In this document: one piece after another, positions 54,077-61,514 of the stretch
Numbering within the stretch: position 1 is the stretch's first letter
How the letters are laid out: each line of letters opens with the position of its first letter
From: Candidatus Eremiobacterota bacterium
Lineage (GTDB): Bacteria > Vulcanimicrobiota > CADAWZ01 > Ess09-12
Direction: 5' to 3'
Length of the DNA stretch: 64,000 nucleotides
Assembly (NCBI GenBank): GCA_031082125.1
Contig: JAVHLM010000006.1
Span: forward strand, 1 to 64,000
Program-made: the position numbers and the translations under genes
The notes under the pieces: model-generated
Seen by the model: the letters and a program-made list of their open reading frames with translations, nothing else
The model's database searches: none
What the model was told of the DNA's origin: nothing

Positions 54077-54826
54077 ATGAACGTAAACACACACAATAAC
54101 ATGGCCATGATGTCCTCGATGGTAGGCATCCCCCAGCAGACAGGCCAGACCAAGCAGGTAAACAAGGATCTGGACGAGGGGAAGCAGATTACCGAGACAG
54201 ACAAGCCCGATGACTCTCAGGAACTCACCAAGGACAAGGCAAACGTCAATTCCCAGGGCAACCAGATGGAGAGCGTCTCGCGGCAGCAGTCGCGCTCAGT
54301 GGCGCGCCGCTACGTTGCCGAGGATTACAAGACCGAGCAGCAGGCCAAAGGCACCGAGAATGAGCAGGTGCAGGACTCGCAGCTCAACCAGCAGTCAGGG
54401 ACGCAGCCCAAAGGCAGGCTCTTCCTCGACACTTCTTCACAGATCCAGCACAGCTTCCAGAAAATGCAGGAGCAGCAGCTGCAGCAGCAGTCTGCCAACA
54501 ACCAGGCAAAGATGCGTCCCGACGTGCAGCGCAAGATCTTCGCGGAGAACCTCCGCAAGTGGGTCGATGTAGAATACAAGCAGTTTGTCAAGCAGAACGA
54601 TCCCCTCTACACGAGAAGGAACCTCCGCGAGATCCTCCAGGCCCTCGGCGACCAGGATACCCAGACAAAGAAGACCAAGTCGAGCAGCACCGACAGCCTC
54701 GGCAAGAACAGCGTGCAGTACAGCCGCTACAACAAGTACAACATCACCCAGGCCTCAAAGGCAATGCGGATTTTCGAGGAGATCCCCTCAAACATCGACA
54801 ACGTGGACTATGATCTCGTGGCTTGA
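54077..54826 (+). CDS. Gln-rich, largely disordered protein of unknown function
   Basis: A 249-residue protein with no recognised domain and no signal peptide or membrane segment. Residues 1-150 are Gln/Ser/Thr/Lys/Asp-rich and should be disordered (IPQQTGQTKQVNKDLDEGKQ, QKMQEQQLQQQSANNQAKMR). A helical, more conserved-looking part lies at about 150-205 (RKIFAENLRKWVDVEYKQFV, YTRRNLREILQALGD). It has its own promoter, a very strong ribosome site and a terminator, so it is monocistronic and probably well expressed. Cys is absent. It might be a structural, scaffolding or secreted protein (for example a flagellar or type III substrate), but nothing shows that directly. Confidence 0.75.
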   Translation: MNVNTHNNMAMMSSMVGIPQQTGQTKQVNKDLDEGKQITETDKPDDSQELTKDKANVNSQGNQMESVSRQQSRSVARRYVAEDYKTEQQAKGTENEQVQDSQLNQQSGTQPKGRLFLDTSSQIQHSFQKMQEQQLQQQSANNQAKMRPDVQRKIFAENLRKWVDVEYKQFVKQNDPLYTRRNLREILQALGDQDTQTKKTKSSSTDSLGKNSVQYSRYNKYNITQASKAMRIFEEIPSNIDNVDYDLVA

Positions 54827-57075: not shown

Positions 57076-57511
57076 CTGCCCGGTCCATCTCGCGGCGCGC
57101 CTCTTTTTTCACCAGCGCCTCCCGCTTGTCATAGAGCTTCTTTCCCCTCGCGATGCCCAGCTCCACCTTGGCTTTCCCTCTCTTGAAATACATCCTTATG
57201 GGCACAAGGGTGAAGCCCTTCTCGGCAACCTTGGCATGGAGGCGCTTTATCTCGTCGCGGTGGAGAAGGAGCTTCCTGGTGCGCAGGGGCTCATGGTTAT
57301 AGATATTCCCCTCCTCATAGGGGGAAATGTGGGCCGACACGAGCCAGCACTCGCCGCTCCTCACTATGGCATAGGACTCGGTAAGGCTCGCCTTCCCGCG
57401 GCGCAGCGATTTTACCTCGGTGCCGGTGAGCACGATGCCCGCCTCCAGCTTCTCGTCGATAAAATACTCGTGGTATGCTTTCCTGTTGATGGTGATAACC
57501 TTTTCGCTCAT
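57023..57511 (-). CDS. smpB: SsrA-binding protein SmpB
   Basis: A 162-residue SmpB with normal length and sequence: ITINRKAYHEYFIDEKLEAG, GIVLTGTEVKSLRRGKASLTE, YAIVRSGECWLVSAHISPYE, NHEPLRTRKLLLHRDEIKRL, and the basic tail GKKLYDKREALVKKEARREM. It carries tmRNA to stalled ribosomes for trans-translation. No tmRNA gene was recognised in the window. The start overlaps the coaE fusion gene by 4 bases (ATGA); the stop lies within the convergent PilZ gene. Confidence 0.97.
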   Translation of the reverse strand: MSEKVITINRKAYHEYFIDEKLEAGIVLTGTEVKSLRRGKASLTESYAIVRSGECWLVSAHISPYEEGNIYNHEPLRTRKLLLHRDEIKRLHAKVAEKGFTLVPIRMYFKRGKAKVELGIARGKKLYDKREALVKKEARREMDRAVKNPRQTSRRGGSPSLR

Positions 57512-58494
57512 GACGCCTCCCGCTCGGCAAAGGTCCCCCTGGCCTGCACCAGCAGGCTGCCCGCTGACGAGAGCACCTTGGCGCTCATCAGGTGATATTT
57601 TCCCTCCAGCCCCTCGTAGGCTGCCTTTACGGTGAGCGTGTCCCCCGTGAGGGCGGGTCTCCTGAAGCGAAGCTCCATCTTTACCGTGACGACGCGGTGC
57701 CCCTTATCGATAAGATAACGCGCCATGGCCTCGTCGAGCATGGTGGTGATAATGCCCCCATGGAGGAGCCCCTTGTACCCCTGGTGCTCCCTCCTCGTGG
57801 TGAAGGTCCCGGAGAGCCCCTTCTCATCGTGGGAGAAAGAGAGGCGCAGGCTCACAGGGTTATCGGCGCCGCAGGCAAAGCAGTAATGGTCATCACGGAG
57901 CGTCAGGGCAAGGCGCTCCTTCATCTCGTCCCAGAGCTTTCTCACCATGCGGCGGGTCGTGTCAGGAGTGCCGCCGTTATCAATGACTGCGTCGGCATGG
58001 AGCTTTTTTTCTTCAAGGGAGAGCTGGCATTTCACGCGCCGGAGAGCTTCTTCGGCGCCGAGGCCGTCGCGGGCAACAAGGCGGCGCACCTGCTCCTCCT
58101 CAGAGAGGGCCACGAGCCAGAGCCTGTCCACGAGGGAGCGCTGGCCTGCCTCTATCAGAAGGGGCGCCATCAGCACGACCACCTCGCTCTTGATGAAGGA
58201 GAGGCGCTCCTTGAGCTCCCCGATGATGGCGGGATGGGTGATACCGTCGAGGCGCTCCCGCATCGCGGGATCAGAAAAGACCTGCCTTCCCAGGGCTGAC
58301 CTGTCAATGCGGCCCTCCCCGTCCAGGATGCCCGTGCCCCACTCTGCTATGATTTTCTCGCAGAGGGGCCTTCCGGGCTCTATGAGGTCCCGGTATACCT
58401 TGTCGGCATCGACGACGGGCGCGCCCCATTCCTCAAGCCATGATGCCACGAGGCTCTTGCCGCTTGCAATACCTCCGGTAATGCCGAGTATCAT
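57508..58494 (-). CDS. coaE: dephospho-CoA kinase fused to a hotdog-fold thioesterase
   Basis: A 328-residue two-domain protein. Residues 1-195 are a complete CoaE: P-loop LGITGGIASGKSLVASWL, VVDADKVYRDLIEPG, LDGITHPAIIGELKERL, PLLIEAGQRSLVDRLWLVAL and ADAVIDNGGT. From about 205 a PaaI/THEM4-like hotdog domain follows, with CFACGADNPVSLRLSFSHDE, GYKGLLHGGIITTMLDEAMA (the His-Gly-Gly with acidic residue of thioesterases) and VKMELRFRRPALTGDTLTVK. CoaE phosphorylates dephospho-CoA in the last step of CoA synthesis; the second domain should hydrolyse acyl-CoA. The two are in one frame without a stop. AAGGAG lies 9 bases before the start. Confidence 0.93.
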   Translation of the reverse strand: MILGITGGIASGKSLVASWLEEWGAPVVDADKVYRDLIEPGRPLCEKIIAEWGTGILDGEGRIDRSALGRQVFSDPAMRERLDGITHPAIIGELKERLSFIKSEVVVLMAPLLIEAGQRSLVDRLWLVALSEEEQVRRLVARDGLGAEEALRRVKCQLSLEEKKLHADAVIDNGGTPDTTRRMVRKLWDEMKERLALTLRDDHYCFACGADNPVSLRLSFSHDEKGLSGTFTTRREHQGYKGLLHGGIITTMLDEAMARYLIDKGHRVVTVKMELRFRRPALTGDTLTVKAAYEGLEGKYHLMSAKVLSSAGSLLVQARGTFAEREAS

Positions 58495-58541: not shown

Positions 58542-61385
58542 TCACTCCTTTTTCTCCCCGGCAAGAGTTTCAATGATGCGGCCGCAGGCTGCGGGATCGG
58601 GGCCCACTATCCGGTCGAGGACCATGAGGCACTCCTCCCTCACGCAGTGCTTCACGCCGAATTCGCCAAGAAACTCCATGATGCAGTCGAAGCGCTCCTC
58701 GTCGTGGATCCGTGAAAATCGCGCAATGGCGGAGCTTATTTTTTCCGTCAGGGGAGCCGAGCAGGCACCGAGAACCTGGCTCGCCAGGTTGGGCGGCAGC
58801 GACAGAAGCACGATGGCAAGGCGCTCCAGGGGCGGCCGGAGCATCTGCGATACCGTGGGGGCTTCCCGGGCAGAGGCTTCTTCGTCCCGGCCAAGGTAAT
58901 ACTGCGACATACCGGCCTCAACTACGGCCCCCGTTATCTCGTCGGTCCCCCGGAGAAGGTAGAGGGTGACGGGGGTAAAGGGGGCGACGCACTCACTCCG
59001 CGAGATGAGGGCGACTTTTTTCACCCTCTCCCTGAGGGCATGGAAAAGGCCCCCCCTGAGATCGTCGCTCACAAGGAGCAAGGGGTGAAGCCCGAGGCCG
59101 TGGCAGTGGTCTATGGCATTGCCGAGCTCCCTCACTATGAGGGCCCCTTTCACGGGACTCTTCCTGAGGGCCTCCTCAAGCTCCGGAGCGAGCTCTATCA
59201 CGGCGATCTCGTCACGGCTGTTGGCAAAACGCCCAAGGATGGAGTGCCGATTCGCCCTGCGGTACTCCAGGACCACCAGCTCGTGATCCGTTGAGCCCAC
59301 GTCCACGATGGTCTCCAGAACCGGCTTCAGGTCACGGATCGACATCCTCTCCTCGAGGAGCCTCTGGAGGAGGAGATGGAGGCCCCGCGGCGATATCCTC
59401 TTCATCGCCTCCTCAACGAGGACCTTGTGCTTCTTCCTGACGATCTCGAGCATTCCCGCCACGTCTTCGAGCGTGAGCAGCTCAGCGGCGCGGACAGAGG
59501 CCACTTCGGTGAGGTGGGCGGCGACGACGCAGAGGTCATCGAAGAGCATGAGGCCAAGCTTCTCGCACTCGTTGCGCCGCCCGGCGTCCACCCAGATGCC
59601 GGGGAGCCCGAAGACGGGGTCCTCCACGTGGAGGCAGCCGAGAAGGGAGAGCTTGTCACGGGGGCCCACGGCGAGAAGCCTGCGGGGCTCCGTGCGCCCG
59701 CAGGCCACGGTGCGCTCCCTCACTTTTATCACGTAGCCTCCCGGATCGAGCTGGAAGTTGTCCCTGAAGCGCACGCCGGGAAGGACGATGCCTAATTCGA
59801 GGCCCAGGTGCTTCCTGATGGCCTTGACGCGCTCAAGGAGCTTCGCTCCCTGGTTCGGGTCCAGGAGGTGGATGAGCTCCCGGCCCACCTCCACGGTGAG
59901 CATGTCCACATCAAAAAGCTTTTCCCATGGGTTCTGGCGGCTCATGTCGGTGCATCCCGCAGGGACGGTCCCCGGTGCTACAGTGACACTCCCATCGTGA
60001 AAGGAGCGGTCATTGCTGCCGGGGAGCGGAGCTTTCCCCACCAGTTTATGGGCGACGGCCACCCATTTCCTCATCACCAGGCCCGCGAGGGCGGCAAAAG
60101 CGTTCCGCCACAGGGTTTCCCTGAAATTCTTGAGGCTCGCGATGAGTGAGCCCATGATCTCGGCGCACCGGCAAGGATTTGAAAGGAACAGGCTCTTGAG
60201 GTGCTCAGGTGCCTCTCCCTGCGGAACTTCCCCGTATCCGGCAAGGGAGAGAAACTTCCCCGCATATTCACCGCCGTGCTCACAGGGAAGCGAAGGGGGG
60301 GCGATGGCAAGAAGAATGGCCCTCACTCCGCAGGCGGGGGGCATATAACGGACCGATTCCATGAAAAAATCAAAGGGGACGCAGTTCAGCATCGCACTTA
60401 TGGCTTCGGCGGTCATCAATTCCCTGGGATTGCTGTCCCTGTATTCATTGACAAGAACCGCCCTGGTGCCCCGGCGGCCCGCAATCTCCATGAGGGCCCT
60501 GTCCACCCCGCTCTCAGATTCTCCCCTTAAGTGGAATAATCTCACCACCCTCTCATGACCTGCCATGAGCGCCCAGTGAAGGGCTTTCCTGCCGTGGCTG
60601 TCCTTCACCGAGAGATCGGCGCCGGCGAGAATAAGGCGCTCAATCAATTCGGTATTCCCGCGGGCGGCGGCGTAGTGAAGGGGAGTCGCGCCGTAATCGT
60701 TATCCTGCGCGTTCACATCGACAGCGAGCTTCAGAAGGGCCTCCACTGCCCCGGGGGCGCCGAAGGCCGCCCCAAGGTGGAGGGGAGTTCTCCCTCTGAG
60801 GTCCTTCATGGAGAGAAATGTTCTGTACTCTTCTTCGGAAGCCGCAAAGCGCCCATAGTGGTCGGCCATGAGCGTCACAAGGCGCCCATGGCTTCCCAGG
60901 GCGGCGAAATGGAGGGCCGTAAGGCCTTTCCTGTCAGAGGCCTTCACCGAGGCTCCCTCCTCCAGAAGGAGAACCGCCAGCTCATAGTGGCCCTTGAGGG
61001 AGGCCCAGTGAAGGGGCGTCATGCCTTCCCTGTCGGCGGCGTCACCATGAGCCCCCCTCAGGAGGAGAAAGCGCGAGACGGGGAGAGCACCCCCGAAGGC
61101 CGCGCAATGAAGAAGGGTCGATCCCCGCATGTTCACGGCGTCAACGCTTGCGCCACTGCTGATACAGCGCTCCAGGGCTTTCAGGTTCTTTTTTTCAACG
61201 GCTTCGAAGGCATCGCATGGGGGCGGCACGCCATTCCCTCCCTTTCCTGAAATAAATGAGATTTTCTCAATACACCCGGGTACGGAAAAGAGTTTCTGTG
61301 TTGAGTAAAGGGACGTGGCAGGCAGGGGAAGAGACGAAAAGGCATGGGAAACTGAGCGGTGATAAGCATATATCATCCCCGGCAC
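58542..61385 (-). CDS. ankyrin-repeat protein fused to an FlhA/SctV cytosolic domain and a FliG_N-like end
   Basis: A 947-residue soluble protein with a new-looking domain order. About 57-290: seven ankyrin repeats (RGSTLLHCAAFGG, GMTPLHWASLKGHYELAVLL, GLTALHFAALGSHGRLVTLM, ATPLHYAAARGNTELIERLI). About 290-480: unrecognised helical region. About 483-828: the complete cytosolic domain of the flagellar/type III export gate FlhA (FHIPEP family), seen in VEVGRELIHLLDP, LLERVKAIRKHLGLELGIVL, RFRDNFQLDPGGY, EDPVFGLPGIWVD, VVAAHLTEVASVRAAELL and EERMSIRDLKPVLETIVDVG. About 845-930: LERLAIVLLSLPPNLASQVL onwards resembles the N-terminal domain of the motor protein FliG. The membrane part of FlhA is absent. 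GTG at 61385 is chosen (GGAGGG 6 bases upstream; the earlier ATG overlaps the -10 box). It lies 47 bases before coaE. Confidence 0.85.
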   Translation of the reverse strand: MPGMIYAYHRSVSHAFSSLPLPATSLYSTQKLFSVPGCIEKISFISGKGGNGVPPPCDAFEAVEKKNLKALERCISSGASVDAVNMRGSTLLHCAAFGGALPVSRFLLLRGAHGDAADREGMTPLHWASLKGHYELAVLLLEEGASVKASDRKGLTALHFAALGSHGRLVTLMADHYGRFAASEEEYRTFLSMKDLRGRTPLHLGAAFGAPGAVEALLKLAVDVNAQDNDYGATPLHYAAARGNTELIERLILAGADLSVKDSHGRKALHWALMAGHERVVRLFHLRGESESGVDRALMEIAGRRGTRAVLVNEYRDSNPRELMTAEAISAMLNCVPFDFFMESVRYMPPACGVRAILLAIAPPSLPCEHGGEYAGKFLSLAGYGEVPQGEAPEHLKSLFLSNPCRCAEIMGSLIASLKNFRETLWRNAFAALAGLVMRKWVAVAHKLVGKAPLPGSNDRSFHDGSVTVAPGTVPAGCTDMSRQNPWEKLFDVDMLTVEVGRELIHLLDPNQGAKLLERVKAIRKHLGLELGIVLPGVRFRDNFQLDPGGYVIKVRERTVACGRTEPRRLLAVGPRDKLSLLGCLHVEDPVFGLPGIWVDAGRRNECEKLGLMLFDDLCVVAAHLTEVASVRAAELLTLEDVAGMLEIVRKKHKVLVEEAMKRISPRGLHLLLQRLLEERMSIRDLKPVLETIVDVGSTDHELVVLEYRRANRHSILGRFANSRDEIAVIELAPELEEALRKSPVKGALIVRELGNAIDHCHGLGLHPLLLVSDDLRGGLFHALRERVKKVALISRSECVAPFTPVTLYLLRGTDEITGAVVEAGMSQYYLGRDEEASAREAPTVSQMLRPPLERLAIVLLSLPPNLASQVLGACSAPLTEKISSAIARFSRIHDEERFDCIMEFLGEFGVKHCVREECLMVLDRIVGPDPAACGRIIETLAGEKKE

Positions 61386-61404
61386 ACACTTCCCTCCACT
61401 GTAC

Positions 61405-61410
61405 ATTATA
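61405..61410 (-). promoter_or_regulatory. -10 box of the ankyrin/FlhA_C gene
   Basis: A perfect TATAAT on the minus strand, followed 7 bases later by the GGAGGG ribosome site. The -35 region is weak (a TTTTACA stretch lies a few bases too far upstream). This position makes the ATG at 61406 an unlikely start. Confidence 0.5.
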
Positions 61411-61464: not shown

Positions 61465-61492
61465 AAAAAAAAGAGGCACCCCGGGGTGCCTC
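61465..61492 (-). terminator. rho-independent terminator of rpsA
   Basis: A perfect 20-bp palindrome (61473-61492, GAGGCACCCC/GGGGTGCCTC) is followed on the minus strand by eight T residues. It lies 23 bases past the rpsA stop codon. Confidence 0.92.
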
Positions 61493-61514
61493 CTCTGTTT
61501 TCTTTGAAAGAACG

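Follow-up and report, generated by a model that had tools for sequence, protein, structure and literature searches.

A soluble ankyrin–FlhA cytosolic domain–FliG_N-like protein and related soluble FlhA_C proteins in large-genome Eremiobacterota

Described export systems and the domains of the window protein

How type III export machines choose and order their cargo is a long-standing question, in which the cytosolic domain of FlhA (FlhA_C) features as the central docking platform. We describe here a gene that encodes a soluble version of this domain, placed between ankyrin repeats and a segment resembling the N-terminal domain of FliG (FliG_N), from the first 64,000 nucleotides of contig JAVHLM010000006.1 of a Candidatus Eremiobacterota bacterium (hereinafter the window). 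Several known systems offer parallels. In Buchnera, flagellar export and basal-body genes are retained without a working flagellum. We know of no multiplied soluble FlhA_C proteins either in Buchnera or in Lysobacter. In the latter, one report describes a comparable retention of flagellar export and basal-body genes (PMC9927559). Both organisms resemble the lineage studied here in having flagellar genes without a functional filament. Nonflagellar type III secretion systems use the export apparatus without flagellin (Abby and Rocha, PMC3459982); the machine of the window genome differs from these in keeping flagellar-type FliF, FliG, and rod proteins. With respect to FlhA itself, Asp456, Phe459, and Thr490 are parts of a dimple that docks the FlgN, FliS, and FliT complexes, and Trp354 of the FlhA linker packs into the neighboring subunit and occludes this dimple (PMC8166844). 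FliT Tyr106 bonds with Asp456 (PMC5932034).

The gene and the parts of its product are as follows:

58542..61406, minus strand: whole gene, a single open frame of 954 aa counted from the first ATG (open reading frame list and coding score)
60516..61211, minus strand: about seven ankyrin repeats, residues ~66-297 (Pfam Ank_2/Ank_4, E 2e-36 to 2e-35)
59937..60515, minus strand: linker, residues 298-490, predicted to be mainly helical at low confidence, without a family match
58989..59936, minus strand: FlhA cytosolic domain, residues 491-806 (FHIPEP, PF00771, profile positions 321-652, E 6e-58)
59925..59927, minus strand: Trp494, at the alignment position of Trp354 in the FlhA linker
59592..59621, minus strand: DPVFGLPGIW, residues 596-605, the dimple motif (Asp456/Phe459/Trp465 equivalents by alignment to E. 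coli FlhA)
58668..58832, minus strand: FliG_N-like segment, residues 859-913, with the SLPP signature of the lineage

A preliminary description of this gene had proposed seven ankyrin repeats, a complete FlhA cytosolic domain, a FliG_N-like end, the lack of any membrane segment, and a position outside flagellar operons, and each of these proposals stands. The PF00771 match lies far above the cut-off and covers only the cytosolic portion of the family profile, the export-channel part (profile positions 1-320) having no match in the window protein. Hydropathy averaged over 19 residues peaks at 1.56, below the transmembrane threshold of 1.8, and the same scan revealed no transmembrane remnant in the linker. 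An AlphaFold2 model of the full protein, computed from an alignment of 13 soluble homologs, has predicted local distance difference test values of ~75-90 across the greater part of the FHIPEP region and poor values elsewhere, with the ankyrin and FliG parts at low confidence. In Foldseek comparisons of the predicted monomer with the PDB, flagellar FlhA cytosolic domains come first (6ch1, 7ctn, and 6ai0; template modeling score by target, 0.80-0.85, with 0.82-0.85 and E 2e-21 for the best), and injectisome SctV ranks behind them.

The Pfam FliG_N profile matches residues 860-918 with an E value of 2.9e-4 and 21.8 bits against a curated cut-off of 25 bits; in a genome-scaled search the score is 26.1 bits, above that cut-off. 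A profile of only the canonical FliGs of the phylum scores 26.8 bits (E 1e-6, computed for 4000 sequences), while the best of 999 shuffles reaches 10.3 bits. The likeness extends over ~55 residues and includes the KAAILLxSLPPxxSAQxx-type signature seen in FliG of this lineage, and the SLPP element common to the segment and the genome's own FliG (LSAKQKAAILLVSLPPDVSAQIFKEF) suggests that the segment was most likely derived from the lineage's own FliG. It differs from FliG in representing the first part of FliG_N only, without the motor domain: FliG_C was not found in the window protein, and Pfam FliG_M gives only a weak match that overlaps the FliG_N segment. A stretch of the linker (residues ~408-433) that is similar by eye to the C-terminal FliG-binding motif of FliF was rejected, as the FliF_C profile gave no match.

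The window protein has in common with FlhA the full cytosolic fold, the DPxFGLxxIW dimple motif, and the VD..xEVG lead-in of the linker, and departs from it in having no channel, in bearing ankyrin repeats instead, and in its FliG_N-like C-terminal segment. SctV/CdsV/YscV belong to the same fold family but show lower similarity than FlhA; moreover, the dimple is reported as not conserved in SctV (PMC5932034), whereas it is mostly kept in the window protein, where D456, P457, F459, G460, L461, I464, and W465 are identical to those of E. coli FlhA and Thr490 is replaced by Ala. Among 24 soluble or rearranged domains, position 456 carries an acidic residue in 23, position 459 has Tyr or Phe in 21, and W465 occurs in all, with a median column conservation of 54% by residue class in the same domains. 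The correspondence of Trp494 with Trp354 may be a coincidence, since the resident FlhA has no Trp at that position.

Soluble FlhA_C proteins, the resident machine, and their ancestry

Beyond the single gene of the preliminary description, we found that the window protein is one of a large family of soluble FlhA_C proteins, most likely derived more than once, along with a parent export machine without filament and motor in the window genome. This 7.43-Mb genome has ten FHIPEP loci, four membrane bound and six soluble. The former are the FlhA of a flagellar-type operon and three divergent versions on contigs C38 and C1. The latter comprise, besides the window protein, a 458-aa protein on C31 encoded beside rph, a free FlhA_C domain of 388 aa (C56), a protein in which FlhB_C is fused to FlhA_C (C41), a TPR protein that carries FlhA_C at least twice (C9), and one of FlhA_C-TPR architecture (C2). 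The near-complete flagellar-type machine is encoded on the same contig as the window gene, ~170 kb away (G000:C6:231000-249000; loci L017 and L140), by an operon with flgB, flgC, fliE, fliF, fliG, fliH, fliI, fliJ, a rod/hook-type gene, fliM, fliN, fliO, fliP, fliQ, fliR, flhB, and flhA (named by NCBIfam where tested and otherwise by sequence reading). No match to Flagellin_N, FliS, or MotB_plug was found in the window genome, which is 97.6% complete.

Soluble or rearranged FlhA_C proteins are abundant across the relatives, i.e., the large-genome Eremiobacterota of the class Xenobia/UBP9 side. FliG_N and FlhA_C occur together in one protein at seven examined loci (L077, L085, L088, L089, L076, L127, and L128; up to E 2e-15), with FlhA_C preceding FliG_N, as in the window protein, at L085, L088, L089, L127, and L128. 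Other architectures join a soluble FlhB_C (Bac_export_2 ~241-335) to a shortened FlhA_C (L012:7093-8376, L086:17833-19611, and L093:5533-6840) or FlhA_C to TPR or zinc-finger modules. Segments like the C-terminal tail of FliF score above every shuffle at L089 (residues 476-499), in the second gene of L077 (51-70), and at L132 (634-653); in a further FliF_C profile run, these segments were themselves part of the profile. A distinct family is typified by the C31 protein (L010:8913-10289, with orthologs L057-L074 and L097-L111), which is found in many Xenobia-type genomes, often beside rph, and at 15 loci in GTDB genomes, including UBP9 and Candidatus Eremiobacterota. Its members possess an unannotated N-terminal domain of ~100 aa, for which a Foldseek search with a C31-type model gave nothing, all matches being to FlhA/SctV. 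The window protein lacks this domain, is not encoded beside rph, and falls in another clade. A candidate ortholog of the window fusion in genome G145 was set aside, as it proved to be a zinc-finger/FlhA_C protein that has hydrophobic segments but lacks FliG_N.

In the main tree, which was built with care from 40 domains and without SctV, the resident-type FlhA clade (support 98/94) includes the window domain, which groups there with the membrane-bound FlhA-like protein of C38 and two rearranged proteins of genome G018 (96/78; 97/88), its exact placement being limited by long branches. Where they align, the FlhA_C of the window protein and the FlhA-type proteins of the lineage share 39-47% identity. 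Soluble copies of genome G007 group with the FlhA of that genome (L038; 90/86), that of G013 (L087) groups with the FlhA of its genus (L041; 100/99), and the C31-type family forms a separate group (100/100 with L084). Supported branches force at least four changes of the soluble label, which suggests that soluble copies most likely arose from resident FlhA on several occasions. In five same-genus pairs of soluble copies, the ratio of nonsynonymous to synonymous substitution rates (dN/dS) is 0.04-0.35, compared to 0.03 for FlhA, values that are rough because synonymous sites are near saturation. These related copies, on which selection was measured as the window gene has no ortholog for comparison, are under purifying selection and evolve faster than FlhA.

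Flagellin was found in only seven Xenobia-type relatives (G006, G012, G013, G015, G016, G026, and G032), and all of these show a strong MotB match and a second full-length FlhA; the flagellin-negative G018 likewise carries two full-length FlhAs. The second FlhAs of five of the seven group with E. coli FlhA in a quick tree of 67 rows (four of them in the main tree), and no soluble copy in either tree groups with this E. coli-like FlhA. On this phylogenetic evidence, the soluble family is a descendant of the conserved flagellar-type machine, which is filament and motor less in the window genome, and true flagella, in the relatives that have them, appear distinct from it. FlhB-family matches are present in 36 of 38 genomes. 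The findings point to a widespread flagellar-type export machine without a flagellin filament in an uncultured lineage.

FHIPEP is already known as a family; the soluble, repeatedly derived, and domain-shuffled FlhA_C set is apparently undescribed, with no publication on it found in literature that excluded most subscription journals and nothing on soluble FlhA_C found in papers on Xenobia/Eremiobacterota with flagella or secretion.

Some further proteins were noted around these loci. One protein of the window genome (L125:7710-9590) has two FliG_N-like stretches and no FHIPEP domain. Enzyme-like proteins near FHIPEP/FliG_N paralogs include a C92 peptidase (L009:5002-5892), a nucleotidase-like protein by reading (L014:6679-8235), a metallopeptidase-like protein (L125:4098-5516), and a PAD-like protein with a weak score (L076:8847-10361). 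It is possible that these four, with their disordered-looking N termini, are export substrates.

Possible roles of the soluble FlhA_C proteins

Taking these findings together, we tentatively favor, as a close to even prospect, the view that the window protein serves a flagellum-derived type III export machine without a filament, either as a soluble adaptor or as an alternative docking platform. We do so because FlhA_C, FliG_N, and FlhB_C are cytoplasmic parts of one machine, because the tree puts the window and other soluble domains by resident-type FlhA, and because the dimple residues are kept, the dN/dS of related soluble pairs is low, and the same contig encodes a nearly complete resident machine. 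In such a role, the ankyrin repeats would bind a particular partner or cargo, FlhA_C would offer a chaperone/substrate-docking surface and either join or compete for the FlhA ring, and the FliG_N-like end would serve as a tether on the FliF/C-ring side of the machine; contact of this kind might promote or limit export. The tether is made more plausible by the FliF-tail-like segments of three relatives, although none is detectable in the window protein.

Several observations weigh against this proposal. A full-length match to the window fusion was found in none of the other genomes among the 149 of the phylum, and the branch leading to the window domain is long (1.39). Ala stands at the Thr490 equivalent, FliS, which is among the known ligands of the dimple, was not found in the window genome, and neither a chaperone nor a cargo of the window protein was found. 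The soluble genes share no conserved operon with export genes or cargo, the only conserved partner being rph (plus a divergent HTH_17 gene in several families) in the C31 type alone. Finally, an export-signal-like motif, D.V.LS, considered as shared by the N termini of neighboring effector-like proteins, was rejected, being not enriched there (2/23,554 versus 3/54,609 residues).

More speculatively, and with doubt outweighing confidence, the filament- and motor-less flagellum of Xenobia might be a general secretion machine, and the multiplied soluble modular docking receptors might each bring their own cargo or signal. The set of such receptors, equally doubtful, would comprise the ankyrin, TPR, FliG_N, FlhB_C, and membrane-anchored zinc-finger versions. 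If true, this would amount to a previously undescribed secretion strategy in which the gate receptors are interchangeable. By repeatedly copying FlhA_C off the membrane and combining it with binding and ring-anchoring modules, the lineage offers many natural experiments on which parts of the domain are needed for docking.

Ranked next after the adaptor or docking platform, and in our estimate unlikely, is a decoy or switch, in which soluble FlhA_C would titrate chaperone-substrate complexes or cap the FlhA ring, thereby limiting or timing export until the binding of a signal protein by the ankyrins released it. A dimple kept without a membrane channel, the absence of the channel-forming part, and a Trp at the exact position where the FlhA linker occludes the dimple are in line with such a role, but the FliG_N, FlhB_C, and TPR parts of the relatives suggest targeting over mere titration, and six different soluble copies in one genome would be an odd route to decoys.

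The preliminary description had raised both regulation of type III export and a scaffold outside any secretion system; with family modules that resemble parts of the resident machine and a dimple that is mostly kept, the former is strengthened and the latter is less favored. We retain the scaffold, in which FlhA_C and FliG_N would oligomerize and bind proteins for some purpose other than secretion, because gene neighborhoods are uninformative and FliS is absent, and deem it less plausible still than a decoy. The location among housekeeping genes (rpsA, coaE, and smpB, or rph for the C31-type family), the frequency of ankyrin or TPR repeats as partner modules, the faster evolution of the soluble copies, and the loss of the Gly460 and Pro442 equivalents from most of the rph-linked family would suit it. 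Against it stand the repeated fresh derivation from resident FlhA, the reuse of FliG and FlhB parts, the retained dimple, and the near-universal FlhB-family matches. That the fusion is evolutionary debris, a recent chance joining, without selected function, of an ankyrin gene and a duplicated piece of flhA, is highly improbable: its singleton status and long branch would fit, but the frame is open over 954 codons with a good coding score, the dimple motif is intact even though the nearest FlhA is only ~40% identical, fusions of this type recur, and comparable genes are under purifying selection.

Gene start and genomic setting

The window gene is intact and lies between rpsA and coaE, with polA and smpB as further neighbors. 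Translation probably starts at GTG 61229 (residue 60; ~895 aa) rather than at the ATG at 61406, as a TATAAT-like box overlaps the latter, while GGGAGG precedes the former at a good distance; the ankyrin part opens directly after this GTG. Just upstream is the following element:

61469..61496, minus strand: strong intrinsic terminator, after rpsA

Three further features of the region were noted. The dephospho-CoA kinase CoaE (57511-58494, minus strand) is fused to a 4HBT hotdog thioesterase domain. At 54077-54823 (plus strand), there is a Gln/Ser-rich protein of 249 aa with no family match and no obvious signal peptide at its N terminus. Similar proteins of ~800 aa recur in the genome (41942-44398, plus strand; L011:2050-4566; L125:9808-12204); one has an HNH endonuclease match, and two of the copies lie near FHIPEP or FliG_N genes.
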